From assembly GCF_000626635.1 (NCBI RefSeq), contig NZ_CP007451.1, positions 4,012,501 to 4,076,500 of the forward strand: DNA of 64,000 nucleotides. Direction: 5' to 3'. Below, piece after piece: positions 1-61,235 of the stretch. The stretch comes from Draconibacterium orientale (lineage in GTDB: Bacteria; Bacteroidota; Bacteroidia; Bacteroidales; Prolixibacteraceae). The notes under the pieces were generated by a model. That model searched no databases. It saw only the letters and a program-made list of their open reading frames with translations, and was not told the DNA's origin. Positions within the stretch are counted from its first letter, which is position 1. Every line of letters starts with the position of its first letter. The translations under genes and the position numbers were made by a program.

Positions 1-1668
1 AAACGAAATAGAATTCCTTACGAATTAACGAACCACGCCGAAATAATAGTACGGATAGAGCATTGGAAAGAAGAAATTGAGAAGCTGGAGAAAGAGATTC
101 AAAAGGCAGTTCGTCAGGCGAAAGGAGCTGTCGATAAAGATCAAAAAGATAAGGCCATTCAAAAACGTCATCAGCTTAGCTACGAGCGTAACTATTGGCA
201 GAATAAGTACAAGCGCTTTACGATGGAAGAAGTGCCTGAAGGCTTTAAAAACAGCCAAATGGTAGATATTGGTATCATTACTAAATATTCGCGACTCTAT
301 CTGAAAACCGTTTTCTCAAAAGTATATACAGTAAAAGGCAACACCGTTGCTGATTTTCGTAAAATGTGGGGCCTACAGGATATCTACACTAAAAAAGCCC
401 GTGTTAATCACGTTCACCACTGTATCGATGCCGTTACAATAGCTTGCATGGATAAAAGTAATTACGAGACTCTGGCTAAGTTTTATCACGACTGGGAAGA
501 ATTGTATGTTGCAGGAGTCGATCAACTTCCTCCGGTAAATAAACCTTGGCCAACTTTTACCGAAGATGTTAAAGGAGTTGAAAAAGAAATACTGGTATCG
601 CACCATACCCCCGATGTGTTGCCAAAACAAAGCAAAAAGAAGCTGCGGAAACGTGGAAAAATACAGTACAATAAAAATGGTGAACCAATATATCAGCAAG
701 GTGATAGTGTAAGAGGCAGTCTTCATAAAGAAACCTTTTATGGAGCCATAGAAAGAGAAATTCTGAATAAGAAAGGCGAAACTGAAAAGCAAATAAAATA
801 TGTAGTAAGGAAACCGCTTGACGGTTTGGAAGATTCGGCCATTAAAAATATTGTTGACGATAGAGTGCGCGAAATTGTAAGCCATGCACGGAAAGAAGAA
901 AAGGAAATCCAAAAGCAAATTGATGCGCTTTTAAAACAACGCAGAAAAGCCGAAGAAAATGAAGAAGCTGAAATCGATAATAAAATCGCCGAACTAAAAC
1001 AGCAGATTGTTGAACTATATTCTCTGCCCAACAAAAACGGAGCTCCTGTGCCTATAAAAAAGGTTCGGGTTTATCAAACTCCCAAAGGAATTTTAGAAAT
1101 AAAGAAGCATAGAGATTGCATAAAAAAACATAAGGCAAACTATCTTACAGAAACAGATGATAATTACATTATGGGGATTTATGAATATTCTCAGAACGGT
1201 AAAATAAAACGCAAGTTTAAAGCTTATAACAATTTTACTGCTTCTAATTATTTGCGTTCAGATATTAAAAAAAGCTTATCGCCACAAGGAATTGGAGCAA
1301 TTAGTGCTATGTTGCCGAATAATTTTATCAACGAAAAGGGCATTGAATTAAAATTGAAGGCTGCACTTAAGATAGGAACTCTTGTTATAATGCACATGCC
1401 AGATGAAAATTTAAATGATCTTACCAATTGGGATGACCTGCAAAAACGACTATACAAAGTATATGGATTTAGAGGAGATGATGGCCGAATTAAACTACGA
1501 TTTCATAATGAAGCGAGACCTGATAAGGAACAGGAGAAACCTTCTAGTTCATTTTCACTTGATATTATTCATTCAAAGCTTATTATATCACTCGGCAATT
1601 TCCACGCTTTAATTGAAGGCATAGATTTTAAAATCGACCCACTCGGAAACATAAAACGTATTAACTAA
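1..1668 (+). CDS. cas9: Cas9 endonuclease, type II-C, C-terminal part
   Basis: RNA-guided DNA endonuclease of a type II CRISPR system. The frame is open from the first base, so this is the last 555 residues of a gene that starts before the window. The RuvC-III motif HHCIDA is at bases 415-432, preceded by a charged helical segment; the roughly 410 residues after it are the WED/PAM-interacting C-terminal region. The HNH nuclease domain must lie upstream and is not visible. Type II-C is inferred from the single cas1 and cas2 and the absence of csn2 or cas4 next to them. The stop codon TAA overlaps the first base of a palindromic repeat. Unlike ordinary II-C operons, cas1 does not follow directly: an unknown gene and a transposase lie between. 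Confidence 0.95.
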   Translation, partial: KRNRIPYELTNHAEIIVRIEHWKEEIEKLEKEIQKAVRQAKGAVDKDQKDKAIQKRHQLSYERNYWQNKYKRFTMEEVPEGFKNSQMVDIGIITKYSRLYLKTVFSKVYTVKGNTVADFRKMWGLQDIYTKKARVNHVHHCIDAVTIACMDKSNYETLAKFYHDWEELYVAGVDQLPPVNKPWPTFTEDVKGVEKEILVSHHTPDVLPKQSKKKLRKRGKIQYNKNGEPIYQQGDSVRGSLHKETFYGAIEREILNKKGETEKQIKYVVRKPLDGLEDSAIKNIVDDRVREIVSHARKEEKEIQKQIDALLKQRRKAEENEEAEIDNKIAELKQQIVELYSLPNKNGAPVPIKKVRVYQTPKGILEIKKHRDCIKKHKANYLTETDDNYIMGIYEYSQNGKIKRKFKAYNNFTASNYLRSDIKKSLSPQGIGAISAMLPNNFINEKGIELKLKAALKIGTLVIMHMPDENLNDLTNWDDLQKRLYKVYGFRGDDGRIKLRFHNEARPDKEQEKPSSSFSLDIIHSKLIISLGNFHALIEGIDFKIDPLGNIKRIN

Positions 1669-1698
1669 TCCTTCAAGGTTTCCAAAACCTTGAAGGAT
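1668..1698. repeat. REP-like palindrome, copy 1 (after cas9)
   Basis: Inverted repeat with 14-bp perfect arms (1668-1681 and 1685-1698), core CCTTCAAGGTTT, around a 3-base centre. It begins in the cas9 stop codon. First of seven related palindromes spread through the CRISPR locus; an RNA copy would form a hairpin and could end or stabilise the cas9 transcript. Confidence 0.9.
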
Positions 1699-1742
1699 TT
1701 GGGGCAACCGAAAACAAGCGGCCAGCCTAAGCCAAAGTTCCA

Positions 1743-1775
1743 ACCTTTTCCAAAGTTTCAAACTTTGGAAAAGGT
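1743..1775. repeat. Perfect 33-bp palindrome of a second type
   Basis: Arms of 16 bp (ACCTTTTCCAAAGTTT and its complement) around a single C. It has the same design as the CCTTCAAGG family but a different sequence. It may be a diverged relative or a transcription terminator after cas9. Confidence 0.85.
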
Positions 1776-1850
1776 ATCCGAAACAAATACCGAATAGATA
1801 AACCGTAAAACAACACAATGTGCTAAAAACCAAAACAAAACTGCTAAAAA

Positions 1851-2078
1851 CCACTGCGGAATGGAAAAAACCAGCGCGAAACGGCATTTACCGCGGAGAA
1901 ATACAAAAAACCGGCGCGGAATGGCTCACTACCAGCGCGAAACAGAAAAAACCACCGAGGAATGGAAAAAACCACTGCGAAATGGAAAAAACCAGCGAGA
2001 AATGCAAGGCAACGCCGTTGTATTGCATTCCGCGCCGGTAAATTGCATTTCTCGCTGGTAAATTGCATTTCGCAACAG
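1851..2078. repeat. 20-bp degenerate tandem array with central inversion
   Basis: Eight direct copies of a 20-bp unit (consensus near CCASYGCGRAATGGAAAAAA) run from 1851 to 2006, with one 21-bp unit at 1911. After a short centre, two to three copies continue in the opposite orientation (2024-2043, 2044-2063, 2064-2078). The last direct copy and an inverted one pair perfectly over 16 bp (1991-2006 with 2044-2059). A-tracts recur at about 20 bp, close to two helical turns, which predicts curved DNA. Short open frames here are by-products: 20 is not a multiple of 3 and nothing resembles a protein. The remainder of 1699-2257 shows only the palindrome at 1743 and a small hairpin at 2204-2219. Confidence 0.85.
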
Positions 2079-2257
2079 AAAAAAACAGAAAACCAAAGTA
2101 TCGTTCATGTAAATATTGTTAATCGACCCGGAACAGTGGAAAAACCCAAAACTGCTGGAGAATAGCCTCCAATTTTCAGTTTCTCCCAATGTTCGTCCTT
2201 CAGCTGCCTGTTTAGGCAGGATACGTTTTAAATTTTTTCAGATTTAAATTTTCACAA

Positions 2258-2914
2258 ATGAATGCATCACAAATGAATGTGGACGAAATTTTATTTCAGT
2301 CGGGATTGCGTATTAATAACAGCTTAAGCGATCCGCTTATTCTCAATGCAGTTAGCCTTATGGGCTACAATCAGGAAAAACTTTTGGAAGGACAAAACCT
2401 GCTGGACGAGGCTACCACTTTGGTTGAAACTCAAAAGCGCGAATACGGCGAGGTGGATGCCGCCCAACAGGTTTTCGATAACCAGCGCACAAATGCACAC
2501 AAAGTTTATATGGCCGTTTTGGCCATCAGTAAAATTGCTTTTAAAGGCGATGTACAGGCTATTTCAACCCTCGATTTAACAGGGCGCCGTGCTTCTACCT
2601 TCAGCGGATGGTTAAACCAAACCCGTAGTTTTTACCGGGCCATTTTGGCCAACGAAGCCTGGAAAACGGAGCTGGCAAAATACGGGCAAACCGAAGCGAT
2701 GTTGACCGGAGAGCTCGCTATGATTGATGCTGTTGCTACCGCATCGGAGAATAAGAAAAAGGAAATGGGCGATGCCCAGAATGCGACACAAGAGCGCGAC
2801 GAAAAAATGGAAGAACTGGCCGAATGGGTAACCGACTACGAAGTTATTGCCCGTATAGCCCTGGCCGATAAACCTCAGTTGCTGGAAAAACTGGGTATTG
2901 TGGTGAAAGGCTGA
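2258..2914 (+). CDS. Uncharacterised helical protein between cas9 and cas1
   Basis: Soluble 218-residue protein with no signal peptide or membrane segment. The sequence is almost entirely heptad-like helix, with a central segment containing LTGRRASTFSGW followed by an FY pair, and a C-terminal DKPQLLEKLGI motif. I have an impression of similar proteins of unknown function in other Bacteroidota, but cannot name a family. Two start codons are possible (2258 and 2276). It lies between cas9 and the RAYT transposase, separated from each by palindromes. Position suggests cargo or an accessory protein; nothing in the sequence shows a CRISPR role. Confidence 0.75.
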   Translation: MNASQMNVDEILFQSGLRINNSLSDPLILNAVSLMGYNQEKLLEGQNLLDEATTLVETQKREYGEVDAAQQVFDNQRTNAHKVYMAVLAISKIAFKGDVQAISTLDLTGRRASTFSGWLNQTRSFYRAILANEAWKTELAKYGQTEAMLTGELAMIDAVATASENKKKEMGDAQNATQERDEKMEELAEWVTDYEVIARIALADKPQLLEKLGIVVKG

Positions 2915-2927
2915 TCTTGTTCGAACC

Positions 2928-2960
2928 AGACCTTCAAGGTTTTAAAAACCTTGAAGGTCT
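2928..2960. repeat. REP-like palindrome, copy 2
   Basis: Arms of 16 bp (2928-2943 and 2945-2960), core AGACCTTCAAGGTTTT, around one base. It lies 13 bp after the stop codon of the helical protein and just upstream of the RAYT start. Confidence 0.92.
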
Positions 2961-2977
2961 ATTAGTAAAATAAAGAA

Positions 2978-3601
2978 ATGAAAACCATCCTGCTCGAATA
3001 CGGAAATTTCTATCACATCTACAACCGTGGAATTAACGGCTGCAACCTGTTCCGCGAGAATGAAAACTATGAGTATTTTCTGCATTTGTACGATAAATAT
3101 ATTTCGCCGGTGGCAGAAACCTTTGCCTGGGTATTGATGCGGAATCATTTTCATTTTTTGATTAGAATTAAAACTGTTAAGGAACTAAACCTTCAAGGTT
3201 TCCAAAACCTTGAAGGTTTGAAAGGAACAAACAGAAATGGGGTTAATCAACAATTTGCAAACTTGTTCAACGCCTACACCAAAGCCATAAACAAACGTTA
3301 TCACCGCACCGGAAGTTTGTTCGAACATCCGTTCCGAAGAATAAAGGTTGAATCTGATGCCCATCTGAAATATTTAGTTTATTATATTCACCATAACCCA
3401 ATCCATCACGGTTTTTGCGATCATTACCTTGATTATCCGTGGAGCTCGTACCTAACAATTGTATCGCCAAAAGCTACAAAACTAAGTAGGGCAGAAGTGC
3501 TAAAGTGGTTTCGTGATAAATCGAATTTCGAAAAGTTTCATTTGCAGGAAGAAATAAGAAAATTCGATGAATTGAATATTCGTTTACCGGGAGACCTTTA
3601 A
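2978..3601 (+). CDS. REP-associated tyrosine transposase (RAYT, Y1/HUH family)
   Basis: Single-strand DNA transposase-like protein of the IS200/IS605 TnpA_REP group, 207 residues. Visible marks: N-terminal HIYNRG motif, the HUH metal site in MRNHFHFLI (H57, H59), a likely catalytic tyrosine near Y100 in NAYTKAINKRY, and the C-terminal YIHHNP and DYPWSSY motifs typical of RAYTs. RAYTs are known to be linked to dispersal of REP palindromes. Here seven palindromes of one family surround it. One copy lies inside the gene (3187-3219), keeps the frame and adds about 11 residues between the HUH and tyrosine regions; another supplies the stop codon. Those changes could impair activity, but all recognisable motifs remain. 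Confidence 0.9.
   Translation: MKTILLEYGNFYHIYNRGINGCNLFRENENYEYFLHLYDKYISPVAETFAWVLMRNHFHFLIRIKTVKELNLQGFQNLEGLKGTNRNGVNQQFANLFNAYTKAINKRYHRTGSLFEHPFRRIKVESDAHLKYLVYYIHHNPIHHGFCDHYLDYPWSSYLTIVSPKATKLSRAEVLKWFRDKSNFEKFHLQEEIRKFDELNIRLPGDL
3187..3219. repeat. REP-like palindrome, copy 3, inside the RAYT gene
   Basis: Arms of 15 bp (3187-3201, 3205-3219) around 3 bases. At 33 bp it is a whole number of codons and is read as NLQGFQNLEGL without breaking the frame. Confidence 0.92.
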
Positions 3602-3625
3602 GGTTTAAAAAAACCTTAAAGGTCT
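3592..3625. repeat. REP-like palindrome, copy 4, overlapping the RAYT stop
   Basis: Arms of 15 bp (3592-3606, 3611-3625) around AAAA. This is a variant with CTTTAAGG instead of CTTCAAGG, changed on both arms so that pairing is kept. The in-frame TAA at 3599-3601 that ends the RAYT lies inside the left arm. Confidence 0.9.
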
Positions 3626-3653
3626 GTATATAAAAACCAATTAAGTTAAAACC

Positions 3654-4544
3654 ATGCTAAAACGAACCTTATTCATCTCCAACCCCTACTACCTGTCGTT
3701 AAAAAACAAACAACTGCAGGTGAGCGAAAGGGGAGGGATGTTGCTAAAATCGGCCCCGGTTGAAGATATCGGCTTCCTGGTGCTCGACCATCCCCAAATT
3801 TCATTCTCGATGAAACTGGTAGAAGAACTGAGCGAATACAATGTGGCTACCGTTTTTTGTAACAGCAAACATATGCCCTCGTCGATGTTGCTGCCGCTCG
3901 ATGCCCATCACATTCAAAGCGAACTTTTCAGGGCACAGATAGCAGCTTCCGAACCGCTGAAAAAGAACCTGTGGAAACAAACCATCGAGGCAAAAGTGAA
4001 AAACCAGGCGGCCTTACTCGATAAATTGGGGAAGAAAAGTTTACAACTAAAAAATATTGCTAAAACAATTAAAAGTGGCGACAGCGATAACCGCGAAGGC
4101 TTTGCTGCCCGTATTTACTGGACGGCTTTACTCGGAAAAGAGTTTATCCGCGACCGCTACGGCGCACCACCCAATAATTTTCTGAACTACGGCTATATTC
4201 TGTTGCGTTCGGCTGTGGCACGGTCACTGGCGGGGTCGGGGCTGTTGGCTACGCTGGGCATCCACCACCGCAATCGCTACAACGCCTTTTGCCTGGCCGA
4301 CGATATAATGGAACCTTACCGTCCTTATGTTGATGAAATTGCCTGCGACCTGGATGAAAAATACCCGGGAACATTTGCGCTCGAAAAGGAACACAAAGCC
4401 GAACTGTTGCAGCTGATGACAGCAGATGTAAAAATTGGCGACAACAAACGTCCGCTTATGGTAGCCCTGTCGCAAACTACTGCCTCGCTGGCCCGCTGTT
4501 TTGCCGGCGAACAACGTAAAATCATTTATCCGGTGTTTGGATAA
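3654..4544 (+). CDS. cas1: CRISPR-associated integrase Cas1, type II
   Basis: Metal-dependent integrase that with Cas2 inserts new spacers into the array. At 296 residues it has the usual length for type II Cas1. The active-site residues appear where expected: Glu148 in REGFAARIYW, His204 in LGIHH, and Glu220 in DDIMEPYRP. It is preceded by the RAYT and copy 4 of the palindrome, and followed by copy 5 and cas2. The gene is intact, so adaptation is plausibly functional provided transcription passes the intervening palindromes. Confidence 0.96.
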   Translation: MLKRTLFISNPYYLSLKNKQLQVSERGGMLLKSAPVEDIGFLVLDHPQISFSMKLVEELSEYNVATVFCNSKHMPSSMLLPLDAHHIQSELFRAQIAASEPLKKNLWKQTIEAKVKNQAALLDKLGKKSLQLKNIAKTIKSGDSDNREGFAARIYWTALLGKEFIRDRYGAPPNNFLNYGYILLRSAVARSLAGSGLLATLGIHHRNRYNAFCLADDIMEPYRPYVDEIACDLDEKYPGTFALEKEHKAELLQLMTADVKIGDNKRPLMVALSQTTASLARCFAGEQRKIIYPVFG

Positions 4545-4556
4545 TCTTTTCAAATT

Positions 4557-4589
4557 AGACCTTCAAGGTTTCTAAAACCTTGAAGGTCT
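4557..4589. repeat. REP-like palindrome, copy 5 (cas1/cas2 gap)
   Basis: Arms of 15 bp (4557-4571, 4575-4589), core AGACCTTCAAGGTTT, around 3 bases, filling most of the 63-bp gap between cas1 and cas2. Confidence 0.92.
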
Positions 4590-4607
4590 GAAAACACGAA
4601 CAATGCT

Positions 4608-4946
4608 ATGCAACAAACCCGATTAAACGCCTATCATATTATGTGGTTATTCGTTTTTTTCGACCTCCCGGTTACCACCAAAAAGGAGCGCCGGCTGGCA
4701 ACCCGTTTCCGGAAAGATCTGATGAAAGATGGCTTTTCGATGATGCAGTTCTCGGTGTATAACCGCCATTGTGCCAGTAAGGAAAGTGCCGAGGTGCATA
4801 TAAAACGTATCAAAAGTTTTATCCCCGAACACGGACAGGTAAGCATACTTACCGTTACCGACAAACAATACGGAAACATCGTTAATGTATGGGGCAACAA
4901 ATCGAGCCCCTTGCCCGAAGGCCCCAAACAGTTGGAAATGTTTTAA
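4608..4946 (+). CDS. cas2: CRISPR-associated protein Cas2
   Basis: Small ferredoxin-fold partner of Cas1 in spacer acquisition; 112 residues. The conserved first strand MWLFVFFDLPV contains the characteristic Asp (D19 from the first Met). A later Met (residue 12) is an alternative start, but the first one lies at normal spacing from cas1. The C-terminus ends GPKQLEMF, a tail of a kind seen in type II-C Cas2. It is the last cas gene; a palindrome follows 11 bp after its stop. Confidence 0.93.
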   Translation: MQQTRLNAYHIMWLFVFFDLPVTTKKERRLATRFRKDLMKDGFSMMQFSVYNRHCASKESAEVHIKRIKSFIPEHGQVSILTVTDKQYGNIVNVWGNKSSPLPEGPKQLEMF

Positions 4947-4957
4947 TTGACTTTCTT

Positions 4958-4990
4958 AAACCTTCAAGGTTTCGAAAACCTTGAAGGTTT
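4958..4990. repeat. REP-like palindrome, copy 6 (after cas2)
   Basis: Arms of 15 bp (4958-4972, 4976-4990) around CGA. Its place between cas2 and the candidate tracrRNA/array region would suit a transcription boundary. Confidence 0.92.
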
Positions 4991-5017
4991 GGATGGAAAA
5001 CACTATATTCGAACTCC

Positions 5018-5150
5018 GTTCTTTGATATTGTGACCGAATATCAATTATACCACATAGAATGAAAAAAACAGTGCATCATTCCGCTTCTCTGCCGGAAAC
5101 AGGGTATTATAGCCATCGTGTTTTTACCGGAAACACCCGTAAAAACAGGG
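5018..5150 (+). ncRNA. Candidate tracrRNA
   Basis: The segment at 5037-5055 is partly complementary to both ends of the CRISPR repeat: GAATATCA pairs with TGATATTC near the repeat 3' end, and ACCACA pairs with TGTGGT near its 5' end, leaving a larger unpaired part on the repeat side. It is followed by a 6-bp hairpin (5058-5063 with 5077-5082) and a stronger one (5119-5130 with 5136-5147, one mismatch), an order resembling tracrRNAs. A TATATTCG near-match to the -7 promoter box is at 5004-5011. No clear U-tract terminator is visible, so the 3' end is a guess. The region otherwise would be the array leader. Confidence 0.45.
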
Positions 5151-5165
5151 CATACCCACCGCTTG

Positions 5166-5450
5166 GTTGTGGTTTGATGTAAAATTGAAATGATATTCAC
5201 CGCTATTGCTGATTATTTCAATCCAACTTACGTTGTGGTTTGATGTAAAATTGAAATGATATTCACCTACAGGGAAACATTAAAGAGCTGATCCCAGTTG
5301 TGGTTTGATGTAAAATTGAAATGATATTCACCACACCATACTTCCGTAACTGTCGGCTCGGCGTTGTGGTTTGATGTAAAATTGAAATGATATTCACCTG
5401 AAACATCATTAATATCGTTATGACAGAAGTTGTGGTTTGATGTAAAATTG
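5166..5450 (+). CRISPR. CRISPR array, four full repeats and a truncated fifth
   Basis: 36-bp repeats, beginning GTTGTGGTTTGATG and ending GATATTCACC, at 5166-5201, 5232-5267, 5297-5332 and 5363-5398, identical to each other. Spacers are 30, 29, 30 and 30 bp. The last repeat (from 5429) keeps only its first 22 bases and then diverges, marking the distal end; new spacers would be added at the cas2 side. A 36/30 spacing with GTTGTGG at the 5' end fits type II-C. Spacer targets cannot be judged without a search. Confidence 0.97.
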
Positions 5451-5469
5451 GTGAAATTTGTAATGGATA

Positions 5470-5500
5470 TACCTACAAGGTTTTCAAAACCTTGAAGGTA
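5470..5500. repeat. REP-like palindrome, copy 7 (array end)
   Basis: Arms of 15 bp (5470-5484, 5486-5500) with one mismatch, just beyond the truncated last CRISPR repeat and 14 bp from the end of the convergent sua5 gene. Probably acts as, or near, the terminator for both. Confidence 0.88.
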
Positions 5501-5514
5501 TAAATATTTCCTGC

Positions 5515-7123: not shown

Positions 7124-9074
7124 TATTATTAAATGAATATTCGTAATCCATAGGAATTATCTGGTTGTATTCTTCAATCGACGCGTTTGACAAACAAGCG
7201 TCAATAATTTTTCTTCCGGTGTGGAACAGGTCTTTGTGCATGAATTTCTTCAGCTCGCGGTTAAAGAATTCCTGTAAAACTTCTGCTCCGGCATCGTAGC
7301 CTTCGGTACCCACTTCAACCTGGTTGTACACTTTCAGGAATCGGGAAGGGATTTTTGAGCTTTCGATGGTGAGGTAATTTAGCTCGTAACCCAAAAGCGG
7401 ACAACGTGCTGCTTGTATCTGGTCGTCTTTTAATTTGGCGCCACCTCTTCGGGTTAAATATTCGCGCATTAAAAGCTGCGGTTTAAAACCAACTTCCCAA
7501 ACGCCAATGTTTTGGTTGGGTACCAGCGAAAAAATGGTACGTGGTGTTTCAATAATTTGCTTCAACAACAGGTTGGCGTGAATAATCCGGTCGCCGGTGG
7601 CAAAAGGCCAGTACGAACCAACTCCTTCGCTTTCCATGGCTCCGGTGCCAACAATACTTGGGTTTTTGTGTCCGCGAGGGGCAACCAAACGCCACAACCA
7701 GGCCAAAGCCGGTGGCAATACGTGAAACAAACCTACAATTCCGTACGTTGGATCTTCTTTCGAACATTTAGGTGTACGGATACCAAAACTACGCACATCA
7801 ACCGAAACCGATCCGTTAATGGTGTTTTCAACACTTTCGCGTGGAAGAACAACCCGTGGATTCGGACAAGGCTTGCCCGGTTCATCTTCAATATGATTCC
7901 AGATCAGGGCTGTTGATTCAGGCTTTGTGTCGATATTTAAAAACAGCAAGGGTTTTTTCGGATGTATCGTTGCCTTTTCAAGAACCGGATCATCGCCGTA
8001 TTGGTTAACACTGTCAACCCTGACAAACCATGCGTTTTCCGCATCCATAATACCAAGTTTACCGTTCTTTTTCTGGAACGATGGATGACAGAAAGCCATA
8101 TCGTCGGCAATGGGCAGGAAGTTACAGGTGCGCGGAATAGTGATATAACGGGTTTCGCCAGTAACCGAATTCTTACCCAACAGAACTCTACCGTCGGTTT
8201 CTCTTACAATGTGCTGGTGCAGTTCCGATTTTCCTCCGCCACTGGCCCCTTCGTGCATAAATGTGGTAACAATGTCGTACGGACTTATCGATTGAACGGC
8301 AGAACAGTGAGCCGTTACCCATTCTTCTTTTTCGCCCTGGGTTAACAACACGCCATACAGCCCTTTTTTGGCACTGGGACCCGGATATAGGTTGTACGAA
8401 TACAATTCGTGAATATCGTCTAAGCGGTTGTGAACAACCACTTGTTTTCCATCGAAATGGGTGTGCCTGAATACCGGCGCAACATAAATTACCGATTTTA
8501 ATTCGCTGTTTTCTGCCAGCTCATCGATAGCCACAATTTCCTGTAGCATGGATAAACCCATGGCGAAAAATCCGGCATTGGCAGGCGCAATTGCAATGCC
8601 TAATGAGCCGATTCCCTGTCGTCCGGCAAAATAGAAAAACACAGCAAGGTCATTTTCTTTTAACCAGTCAAAGGTTTCTTTCTGAATATCGGAAAACGGG
8701 TAATTATATTTTTCTGAAAAACGTTGTTTACCGGTAGGTTTATCATCTCCAATAACCATGGTTCCCGGATCGCGCCGACGCATGTACGCTTCGGTGTAGT
8801 TTACGGAAATACCGTTTTGTACGCGGTGTACTATCGCTTCTGTAAAAGTTCCTTTGCCTTCAATATCGTACGATACGGCAAACTCATTGTTCTCTTTTCC
8901 GCAGGTAGCAGCATCGGCAAGCTCTTCGGTTGTATTGTAGCATGTAAAAGATTGGCATGCACTTAATACTTTTTCAATGTTTGCAGGCAGCTTAACGCCT
9001 TTTTTATCAAGTTTAGTTTTAAAATCTGGAAAAGCTATCTTCATTCTTCTTATTTTTTGTGGTGTAATAACCAA
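7083..9074 (-). CDS. DUF4914 family PEPCK-like protein
   Basis: Large cytoplasmic protein of the DUF4914 type. It carries a phosphate-binding loop GASGGGKSE near residue 275, followed by a region resembling the kinase core of phosphoenolpyruvate carboxykinase. The family has no firm reaction assigned as far as I know. The frame allows 663 residues; the Met at about 9041 (MKIAFPDFKTK) is a likely alternative start. It is co-transcribed with the PurE-like gene and preceded by an XRE-cupin regulator gene on the same strand across a 133-bp AT-rich gap. Confidence 0.8.
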   Translation of the reverse strand: MVITPQKIRRMKIAFPDFKTKLDKKGVKLPANIEKVLSACQSFTCYNTTEELADAATCGKENNEFAVSYDIEGKGTFTEAIVHRVQNGISVNYTEAYMRRRDPGTMVIGDDKPTGKQRFSEKYNYPFSDIQKETFDWLKENDLAVFFYFAGRQGIGSLGIAIAPANAGFFAMGLSMLQEIVAIDELAENSELKSVIYVAPVFRHTHFDGKQVVVHNRLDDIHELYSYNLYPGPSAKKGLYGVLLTQGEKEEWVTAHCSAVQSISPYDIVTTFMHEGASGGGKSELHQHIVRETDGRVLLGKNSVTGETRYITIPRTCNFLPIADDMAFCHPSFQKKNGKLGIMDAENAWFVRVDSVNQYGDDPVLEKATIHPKKPLLFLNIDTKPESTALIWNHIEDEPGKPCPNPRVVLPRESVENTINGSVSVDVRSFGIRTPKCSKEDPTYGIVGLFHVLPPALAWLWRLVAPRGHKNPSIVGTGAMESEGVGSYWPFATGDRIIHANLLLKQIIETPRTIFSLVPNQNIGVWEVGFKPQLLMREYLTRRGGAKLKDDQIQAARCPLLGYELNYLTIESSKIPSRFLKVYNQVEVGTEGYDAGAEVLQEFFNRELKKFMHKDLFHTGRKIIDACLSNASIEEYNQIIPMDYEYSFNNIEDYEQSSYNNGL

Positions 9075-60300: not shown

Positions 60301-61235
60301 GCGCTAAGCGGTTTAAAACCGCTAAGCGCATGGTTTGCACAACAAACGGTTGGTAAGGGATGTCATCTTTCTGAGTTTTTTATAGAGAGATGACATCCTT
60401 GTTTGCACCTGAAATGGTGAGTTTTCGTCCTGAAAGGACAGGTAATTTTAGCCCAGGGCATCGCCCTGGGGATATTTGCAGAAGTGATATCGGGCTGAAA
60501 GCCCAGCTTAATAACCGGCCCTTTCAGGGCGATGAGCCAACAGACTGTCGGTTTCCCAAGGCGTCGCATTCGCTTTGCCGTTGGGTTAGAATAAATTGGG
60601 CTTTCAGCCCGGTAATATTTTCAATGTTTGGTTAAGCGCTAAGCGGTTCAAAACCGCTAAGCGCATGGTTTGCAGAACTAAAGGTTGGTAAGGGATGTCA
60701 TCTTTCTGAGTGTTTATAGAGAGAGATGACATCCTTGTTTGTACCAGAAATGGTGAGTTTTCGTCCTGAAAGGACAGTTTATACCGATTTAACAACAAAA
60801 TGTCGCATACTTTCACTTCGTTCAGTCTTCTCCTTTGTTGTATTATCGGCATTTACCATTGTAAACTTTCTTATTGCCATGCGGCAAAATAAAGTACAAT
60901 TGGTATAATTTTAGCCCAGGGCATCGCCCTGGTGATATTCGCAGAAGTGATTTCGGGCTGAAAGCCCAGCTTAATAACCTGCCCTTTCAGGGCGATGAGC
61001 CAACAGACTGTCGGTTTCCCAAGGTGTTGCATTCGCTTTGCCGTTGGGTTAGAATAAATTGGGCTTTCAGCCCGCTGATATTTTCAATGTTTGGTTAGCA
61101 CTAAGCGATTCAAAGCCGCTAAGCGCATGGTTTGCAGAACAAAAGGTTCGTAAGGGATGTCATCTTTCTGAGTTTTTTATAGAGAGATGACATCCTTGTT
61201 TGCACCTGAAACAGGACGTGAATTTTTCCTACAGG
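60301..61235. repeat. Composite tandem repeat block, two full units and a partial third
   Basis: Each unit carries, in order, the GCGCTAAGCGGTT palindrome (60301-60329, 60636-60664, 61098-61126), the GGATGTCATCTTTCT hairpin (60358-60398, 60693-60734, 61155-61195), TCCTGAAAGGACA, and a stretch of about 200 bp rich in small palindromes (CCCAGGGCATCGCCCTGGG, GGGCTGAAAGCCC, GCCCTTTCAGGGC). Unit 2 holds a 131-bp insertion at 60778-60908. Similar open frames ending FSMFG in both units only reflect the DNA repeat. With the previous entry this fills the 1.4 kb between the AmpG-like gene and the TPR gene. Confidence 0.88.
60778..60908. mobile_element. MITE-like insertion within repeat unit 2
   Basis: 131 bp absent from unit 1 at the same place (TCCTGAAAGGACAG continuing to TTTTAGCCCAGGG). 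Ends TTATACC and GGTATAA form 7-bp terminal inverted repeats, extended with mismatches. It encodes nothing recognisable, so it would be moved by a transposase elsewhere. Confidence 0.7.

Follow-up and report, generated by a model that had tools for sequence, protein, structure and literature searches.

The genome of Draconibacterium orientale raises the question of why a gene for a REP-associated tyrosine transposase (RAYT; REP, repetitive extragenic palindrome) and a family of palindromes lie among the genes of a type II-C-like CRISPR (clustered regularly interspaced short palindromic repeats) locus. The stretch analyzed here, called the window, comprises 64,000 nucleotides (positions 4012501–4076500) of the single 5.13 Mb contig of this genome (G000; G numbers denote genomes and L numbers stretches fetched from them, L016 being the stretch around the locus). 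The genes stand in the order cas9, a gene of the NF052641 'PQLLE' family, RAYT, cas1, cas2 and CRISPR array, as a first-pass annotation of the window had already recognized, the PQLLE gene being its unknown gene. The comparisons reported here indicate that a cognate RAYT/REP pair is probably a long-term and recurrent resident of the type II-C-like CRISPR locus, no function being implied.

The RAYT gene (2978–3601, plus strand) encodes a protein of 207 amino acids. This protein has the TnpA_REP fold, with the HUH motif NHFH at residue 56 and a single catalytic tyrosine in the Y-x-x-x-N-P motif YIHHNP at residue 136; the motifs are invariant in an alignment of 17 rows. Its score against the family model NF047646 is 47.7 bits (E 1.5e-12) at a cut-off of 80, and all 17 rows of the alignment match this model at E 1e-3. 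By fold and motifs the protein is a RAYT, and it is predicted to act on single-stranded DNA as an HUH/Tyr nuclease of TnpA_REP type. The gene is flanked by palindromes just upstream (2928–2960) and across its stop codon (3592–3625). A third copy (3187–3219) lies in frame within the gene, between the HuH and Y motifs, and codes for about residues 71–81, where the model confidence is low.

Four further palindromes of the same family are found after cas9 (1667–1699, with the signature AATCCTT..AAGGATT), between cas1 and cas2 (4557–4589), after cas2 (4958–4990) and at the end of the array (5469–5501). All seven stand where the first-pass annotation had placed them. Six of them match the strict pattern CCTTNAAGGTTT..AAACCTTNAAGG exactly, the copy at 5470 having one arm mismatch, and as many strict matches were reached in none of 100 dinucleotide shuffles of the window (mean 0.00). 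The usual form of the palindrome is AGACCTTCAAGGTTT-nnn-AAACCTTGAAGGTCT. Scans gave no further copy of this first family in the 64 kb, as the annotation had stated. To the left of the window an additional copy lies between a 590-aa gene and cas9 (G000:C1:4009930), and the locus holds eight first-family palindromes in about 8.1 kb, the imperfect one included. Twenty-one strict copies are present genome-wide, six in the window, one just left of it and 14 elsewhere, besides imperfect ones; this is the highest strict count among 101 genomes. At the density of the 14 dispersed copies about 0.02 copies are expected per 8.1 kb, and the locus is the largest cluster of the family in the genome. The dispersed copies are extragenic: none of the 18 examined (14 strict, 4 imperfect) overlaps a retained ATG-started frame of at least 80 aa. 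No RAYT remnants were found beside dispersed copies in the 19 stretches searched. The fold and motifs of the protein, the in-gene and flanking copies of one family and the dispersed extragenic copies agree with the earlier view of a RAYT that resides here together with a cognate REP family. The RAYT would most likely target the 33-bp palindromes that surround its gene and lie within it, and we infer that these hairpins are recognized by it.

The pairing of the hairpin arms has been kept. The copy at 3592 carries a compensatory change on both arms, C-G to T-A, from which the annotation had suggested that pairing is maintained, and covariation bears this out. Ten of the twelve group-A loci contained 42 copies, of which the 38 with a length of 33 nt made up the set; four copies of 32 or 34 nt were left out, and G051 and G060 had none. 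Among these 38 copies (29 distinct), 97.9% of the cells are standard pairs and 6 of the 15 pairs are changed on both sides, values that none of 500 shuffles reached. As many pair types were obtained in 29 of the 500 shuffles. Folded as RNA, the window's eight hairpins (the seven and the second-family palindrome at 1743, described below) give −17.3 to −24.5 kcal/mol, with z of −4.9 to −8.2. The terminator role that the annotation had also suggested is unsupported, as none of the eight is listed by a terminator scan.

The age of the palindromes can be judged from sister species. The survey covered 101 genomes, the window's own included, and detected II-C-like cas1 at E 1e-20 in 38 of them (40 loci, all fetched). 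RAYT lies upstream of cas1, on the cas1 strand, in 20 of the 40 loci, and in a further two (G064, G089) it precedes cas9; among the 18 remaining loci that of G021 begins at a contig end and cannot be judged. L129, a RAYT locus without cas1, is not counted among the 40. The palindromes of sister species are found at matching places: before and after cas9, before RAYT, within it and at its stop codon, between cas1 and cas2, after cas2 and after the array. For all eight positions a counterpart exists in one or more of the sister loci, 'after the array' being a loose bin that is roughly matched, and the species differ in which places are filled. RAYT and palindromes together occupy matching places in G024, G029, G003 and G031. 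Single positions also carry private signatures. The post-cas9 copy begins with AATCCTT in G000, G024, G003 and G008, and its whole signature is shared with G024, G008 and, except for the last base, G003. The copy at the RAYT stop codon reads CCTTTAAGG (T-A pair) in G000, G024, G029 and G003, and CCTTGAAGG (G-C) in G031. The matching places and private signatures indicate old copies that were for the most part inherited rather than newly spread. We propose that in the window's genus the palindromes became fixed at cas gene junctions.

The locus of G034 contains three palindromes, and no RAYT match was found in this genome at E 1e-25. The annotation had regarded palindrome-bearing loci in genomes devoid of RAYT as evidence against its view, and G034 is in part such a case. 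The sole palindrome between PQLLE and cas1 in this locus (L094) resembles on its left flank the copy before RAYT, and on its right flank the copy after RAYT, of sister loci. Since its flanks resemble both RAYT-flanking copies, the absence of the gene is read as a loss. G034 thus appears to be a natural empty site, from which RAYT was lost between two REPs with one palindrome left.

The linkage of RAYT to cas1 extends beyond these species. In the whole family (140 genomes), 47 II-C-like cas1 loci are present in 45 genomes, and RAYT lies upstream of cas1 in 35 of the 47 (19 of the 25 loci seen before and 16 of the 22 new ones). An even sample of the class comprised 295 genomes, 63 of which have II-C-like cas1 at E 1e-50. 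Sixty new loci were obtained from it, with RAYT upstream of cas1 in 12 (at a distance of up to 150 bp in 11 and of 1,294 bp in one) and directly downstream in 3. Counted from the side of RAYT, the same sample gave 81 RAYT rows in 58 genomes, which is a lower bound, since at most 10 candidates were scored per genome, and a few rows may be two pieces of one gene. Sixteen of the 81 rows, the window's own included, lie within 300 bp of II-C-like cas1, 12 upstream and 4 downstream, and all 16 are on the cas1 strand; two more rows lie within 10 kb. Up to 1.5 kb on either side of type I-B cas1, the only cas1 type compared, RAYT was found in none of 22 loci of this sample, four of which are under the family's cut-off and five of which are short stretches. 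The gene purE was useless as a control, being matched in 2 of the 295 genomes. On the sequences compared, the linkage of RAYT to II-C-like cas1 is shown to be non-random and strand-biased, and it was not seen beside type I-B cas1. A fusion of RAYT and Cas1 was also considered and rejected, as no frame of the loci scanned matches both profiles.

The linked RAYTs do not go back to a single origin. In a quick tree of 119 RAYTs, from which matches under 150 bits were left out, the label of the 26 linked rows requires 12 changes, at least 6 of them forced by well-supported branches, against a shuffled mean of 23.8; the 26 rows include the loose cases L132, L137 and L149, and G064 and G089 near cas9. 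A tree of 145 RAYTs (52 linked, frames under 150 aa left out) requires 14 changes against about 43 after shuffling, and under a midpoint root it contains all-linked groups of 17, 10, 4 and 4 rows (support 67, 86, 98 and 83, respectively). Such counts of label changes cannot tell gain from loss. In a careful tree of 40 rows, which were chosen after the 119-row tree had been seen, the approximately unbiased (AU) test rejected monophyly of the 12 linked rows (p 3.9e-74). RAYT and cas1 distances are correlated over 48 loci (Mantel r 0.67, reached in 0 of 2000 permutations), and the linked RAYTs form 9 clusters at 50% identity. The rejection of monophyly and the correlated distances point to several origins followed by shared descent. 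Together with the matching positions in sister loci, the several RAYT lineages beside II-C-like cas1 across the class imply an old, recurrent partnership. We propose that in the window's class RAYTs have several times come to adjoin cas1, nearly always on the cas1 strand, and were then inherited together with it. The first-pass annotation had the RAYT/REP pair colonizing a defence locus; the pair is indeed resident there, but one recent event does not agree with the match of sister species and the several RAYT lineages.

The RAYT gene is also under selection. For ten group-A loci the median ratio of nonsynonymous to synonymous substitution (dN/dS) is 0.093 for RAYT (24 of 45 pairs with finite dS) and 0.058 for cas1 (35 of 45), dS being near saturation in many pairs. 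These ratios show purifying selection on RAYT, and selection presumably keeps the RAYT–cas1 linkage. Among the 48 linked RAYTs, the HUH pattern, leading residue included, is matched by 42 and the Y pattern by 47. The six HUH non-matches are the short frames of L251, L290 and L292 and the full-length proteins of L233, L259 and L293, in which H-F-H is retained but preceded by a different residue; the frame of L296 ends short of the Y motif.

Other RAYT lineages have other palindrome families at similar places. These are ACTTTTCCAAAGTT in the loci of G015, G035 and G038, GGTTTCACCC in those of G057 and G051, AGTGACCGGGTGACTT in G043, TCGGTGTCACTTCG in G018 and CTGACAGGGTTT in G084; near the RAYTs of G053 and G060 no palindrome was found at the setting used. 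Over the 48 linked loci a palindrome lies inside the RAYT gene in 30, just upstream in 23 and at or after the stop codon in 13, and after one letter shuffle of each locus no such palindrome was found in any of the 48. Within a locus the in-gene palindrome resembles the flanking ones in 22 of 31 pairs, compared with 105 of 638 between loci. The window itself holds a perfect palindrome of a second family (1743–1775, ACCTTTTCCAAAGTTT..), of which the G000 genome has 4 strict copies. This second family occurs inside the RAYT genes of another cas1-linked lineage (G015, G035, G038) and also at the cas junctions of G003, G008, G051, G453 and G462.

Several results weigh against a close tie of RAYT and its REPs to the CRISPR locus. 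Around 76 unlinked RAYTs, palindromes lie upstream in 39 loci, downstream in 38 and within the gene in 22; flanking copies are as common as at linked loci, and REPs are therefore not special to cas loci except for the in-gene rate (30/48 against 22/76). The GT[AG]G foot was found within 14 nt of 2 of 69 distinct palindrome copies, 4.5 being expected by shuffling. Forty-five of the 60 class II-C-like loci have no RAYT on the cas1 strand in the 0.8–2.5 kb examined on each side, which indicates that RAYT is not needed there, and in L289 RAYT lies downstream of cas1 on the opposite strand. For 63 of the 81 RAYT rows no cas1 lies within 10 kb on the contig. Among the best 80 of at least 247 RAYT loci in a wider collection, which may leave out near relatives of the window, 76 have no cas1 near, some of them on short contigs; of the four others, L197 alone lies directly upstream of cas1, L132 being at 590 bp, L149 at 1.8 kb and L137 on the opposite strand. 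The 16 RAYTs observed within 300 bp of cas1 compare with 0.005 predicted by uniform placement in 3.9-Mb genomes, a Poisson figure that overstates the evidence because the rows, here as in every count, share common descent. The choice of the 40 tree rows after the larger tree had been seen is a further reservation. Some linked RAYTs are broken, with internal stops in the rows of G204, G240 and G368 and short frames in L251, L290, L292 and L296, and in G034 RAYT was lost without loss of cas1.

RAYTs, REPs and in-frame REPs within RAYT genes are already known (Quentin et al. 2018, PMC6006769; this and the other papers cited are represented by their available sections). Compared with the E. coli type of TnpA_REP/RAYT REPtron (4ER8), the palindromes of the window lack the GT[AG]G foot, and residues 115–116 of the RAYT are F-E, aligned with W-Q of 4ER8. 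The copies are also few, about a third of them lie in one locus, and the gene adjoins cas1. In TnpA_REP subclass 2.4, described for Bacteroidetes, an in-frame REP occupies a variable peripheral loop that lies between HuH and Y, and such in-gene REPs are called unique to this subclass (PMC6006769). The RAYT of the window resembles this subclass in its in-frame REP and enlarged HuH–Y distance (80 against a median of 88), whereas the GT[AG]G feet and WQ proteins of subclass 2.4 were not seen, and it is not filed under 2.4. Subclass 2.6, mostly from Bacteroidetes, has flanking structures without GT[AG]G and the Y motif YIH[QN]NP (PMC6006769), to which YIHHNP is close. However, the structures of 2.6 are described there as atypical and weaker, and in-gene REPs as confined to 2.4, whereas the palindromes found here are strong and perfect. 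Because the GT[AG]G foot is missing and F-E replaces W-Q, the protein is regarded as a RAYT of no named subclass, and the palindromes are called REP-like, as distinct from canonical GTAG REPs. Fremin and Kyrpides (2022, PMC9067536) have described candidate RNAs that are palindromic and overlap cas genes, with a Bacteroidetes set at the cas6 stop codon and a single candidate close to where cas1 ends (3′); these come from type I and III systems, and RAYT is not mentioned in the available sections. The word CRISPR is absent from the main text of PMC6006769. No report of a RAYT beside cas1 was found by title or abstract among the matches listed from the open-licence literature, and the available sections of PMC9067536, PMC6006769, PMC8266576, PMC3116915, PMC3733652, PMC3686654, PMC10910872, PMC10309648 and PMC8934634 do not report the link.

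What the partnership is for allows several answers, which overlap in part with the reading of a long-term resident pair: it may serve spacer acquisition, tune the cas mRNA or be a case of selfish hitchhiking. The shared orientation, the contact with cas1, the absence beside the I-B cas1 tested and the purifying selection suggest use by the CRISPR locus. There is about an even chance that the linkage serves the locus in this way, with hairpins protecting or partitioning the cas mRNA and RAYT acting with the adaptation genes. Hitchhiking is nearly as likely: a RAYT unable to move itself would ride on often-transferred II-C loci and give the locus nothing. RAYTs are single-copy and apparently unable to mobilize themselves (Bertels and Rainey 2011, PMC3116915). 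The several lineages beside cas1, the rarity in the class, the losses and broken copies and the many free-living kin with the same REP layout fit hitchhiking, which explains less readily why 16 of 16 RAYTs within 300 bp are on the cas1 strand, why none of 22 lies beside type I-B cas1 (if I-B loci are equally mobile) and why RAYT has a dN/dS of 0.09. It is also conceivable, though unlikely, that RAYT is an accessory of type II-C spacer acquisition in Bacteroidota, expressed with Cas1–Cas2, and that this RAYT would cut or trim hairpinned single-stranded DNA and pass it to the integrase, or would use Cas1–Cas2 to insert REPs near cas genes. If this were true, REPs and CRISPR would be joined in one enzymatic pathway. 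This would come close to a suggestion, made in passing, that CRISPRs may derive from REPIN-like elements (Bertels and Rainey 2011, PMC3116915).

The hairpins might instead regulate the cas mRNAs themselves, by end protection or attenuation, with RAYT only as their source. The gene-end positions, the stable RNA hairpins and the second family at the same junctions in five genomes agree with this. The same holds for the gap between cas1 and cas2, which contains a palindrome in 12 of 48 linked loci and in 5 of 74 unlinked ones; in two of these five, RAYT follows closely after cas1. A palindrome after cas2 is found in 22 of 41 linked against 15 of 63 unlinked loci, many of these being, by eye, ordinary terminators of no REP family. 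Yet no hairpin of the window is terminator-like by scan, in-gene copies serve no junction and 36 of the 48 linked loci have no palindrome between cas1 and cas2, which makes this explanation rather improbable. A recent colonization of this single locus by a genome-resident pair would account for the largest cluster of the family and for the record of 21 strict copies. It is refuted as a full account by the copies and RAYT at matching places in four sister genomes, the RAYT upstream of cas1 in half of the 40 loci also speaks against it, and we consider it very improbable, although single added copies could still be recent. Least credible is a sampling artefact. Sampling centred on cas1, the over-sampled family and clades of near relatives that share one event would inflate the linkage, but the RAYT-centred count on the even class sample agrees with it and the linked RAYTs fall into 9 clusters. 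How RAYTs serve their hosts has long been an open question, as has the helper of Cas1–Cas2 in II-C systems without Csn2 and Cas4. The repeated, strand-biased placement of RAYT at II-C-like cas1, and not at I-B cas1, joins both questions and offers a simple place to test them. It also calls for caution, as a structured palindrome found in a cas locus may be a REP that has a nuclease of its own and is not part of the CRISPR machinery.

The remaining components of the locus are cas9, a type II cas1, cas2 and an array, the set expected of a type II-C system if no fourth cas gene (csn2, cas4) is present. The 3′ part of cas9 (1–1668, plus strand), whose start lies left of the window, matches PF18541 of the RuvC III region (E 3.2e-18), and scores 83 bits against TIGR01865 (E 1.6e-23, cut-off 100). 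The type II cas1 (3654–4544, plus strand) matches TIGR03639 above its cut-off (E 6.9e-87), and cas2 (4608–4946, plus strand) matches PF09827 (E 1.1e-18). The array (5166–5464) has four full 36-nt repeats (5166, 5232, 5297 and 5363) and a degenerate one at 5429, with spacers of about 30 nt. No csn2 or cas4 was found among the five window proteins scanned, the rest of the locus not being screened for either. The Bacteroidetes promoter pattern places TTG 17–23 nt before TAnnTTTG, and no match to TTG-N17..23-TAnnTTTG was found between cas9 and cas2. RAYT is presumably co-transcribed with cas1 and cas2. The TAnnTTTG element is taken from PMC10309648.

In the G000 assembly cas9 is split into three frames of 332, 313 and 755 aa (L016:7608-11668, window −2392 to 1668). 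It is a single frame in each of the 31 other loci listed (30 of 890–1717 aa; 408 aa in G053), and the frame joints lie near runs of A, so an assembly error is possible. Just upstream of cas9, on the minus strand, an anti-repeat to the CRISPR repeat (L016:7480-7565) adjoins the eighth palindrome (7427-7459); from its sequence and position it is likely to be the trans-activating CRISPR RNA (tracrRNA). The PQLLE gene (2258–2914, plus strand; E 1.2e-72, 244 bits, cut-off 80) also lies between cas9 and RAYT or cas1 in eight sister loci (G024, G007, G012, G034, G029, G003, G008 and G031). This gene and the 590-aa gene (L016:5582-7354), which has no Pfam match, flank cas9 on either side, in sister loci too. 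RAYT, PQLLE and the 590-aa gene had no match in PADLOC or PHROGs at E 1e-3, and an Rfam scan of L016 gave none above the gathering score. Between cas9 and PQLLE (1846–2073) about eight 20-bp tandem units (AAAAACCACCGCGAAATGGA) face inverted units, and a few similar units are present in G003 (L096).

Palindromes of other kinds were also seen in the genome. A longer palindromic element occurs nine times between genes of a sugar/polysaccharide locus (L025:7923-17895; G000:C1:5003923-5013895), the left flank being similar in most copies. This locus also contains two distant RAYT-like genes and two near-identical 394-aa genes, which we take to be transposase-like. Within the window, two near-identical palindromes (GCGCTAAGCGGTTyAAAACCGCTAAGCGC) are located 306 bases apart at 60301–60329 and 60636–60664.

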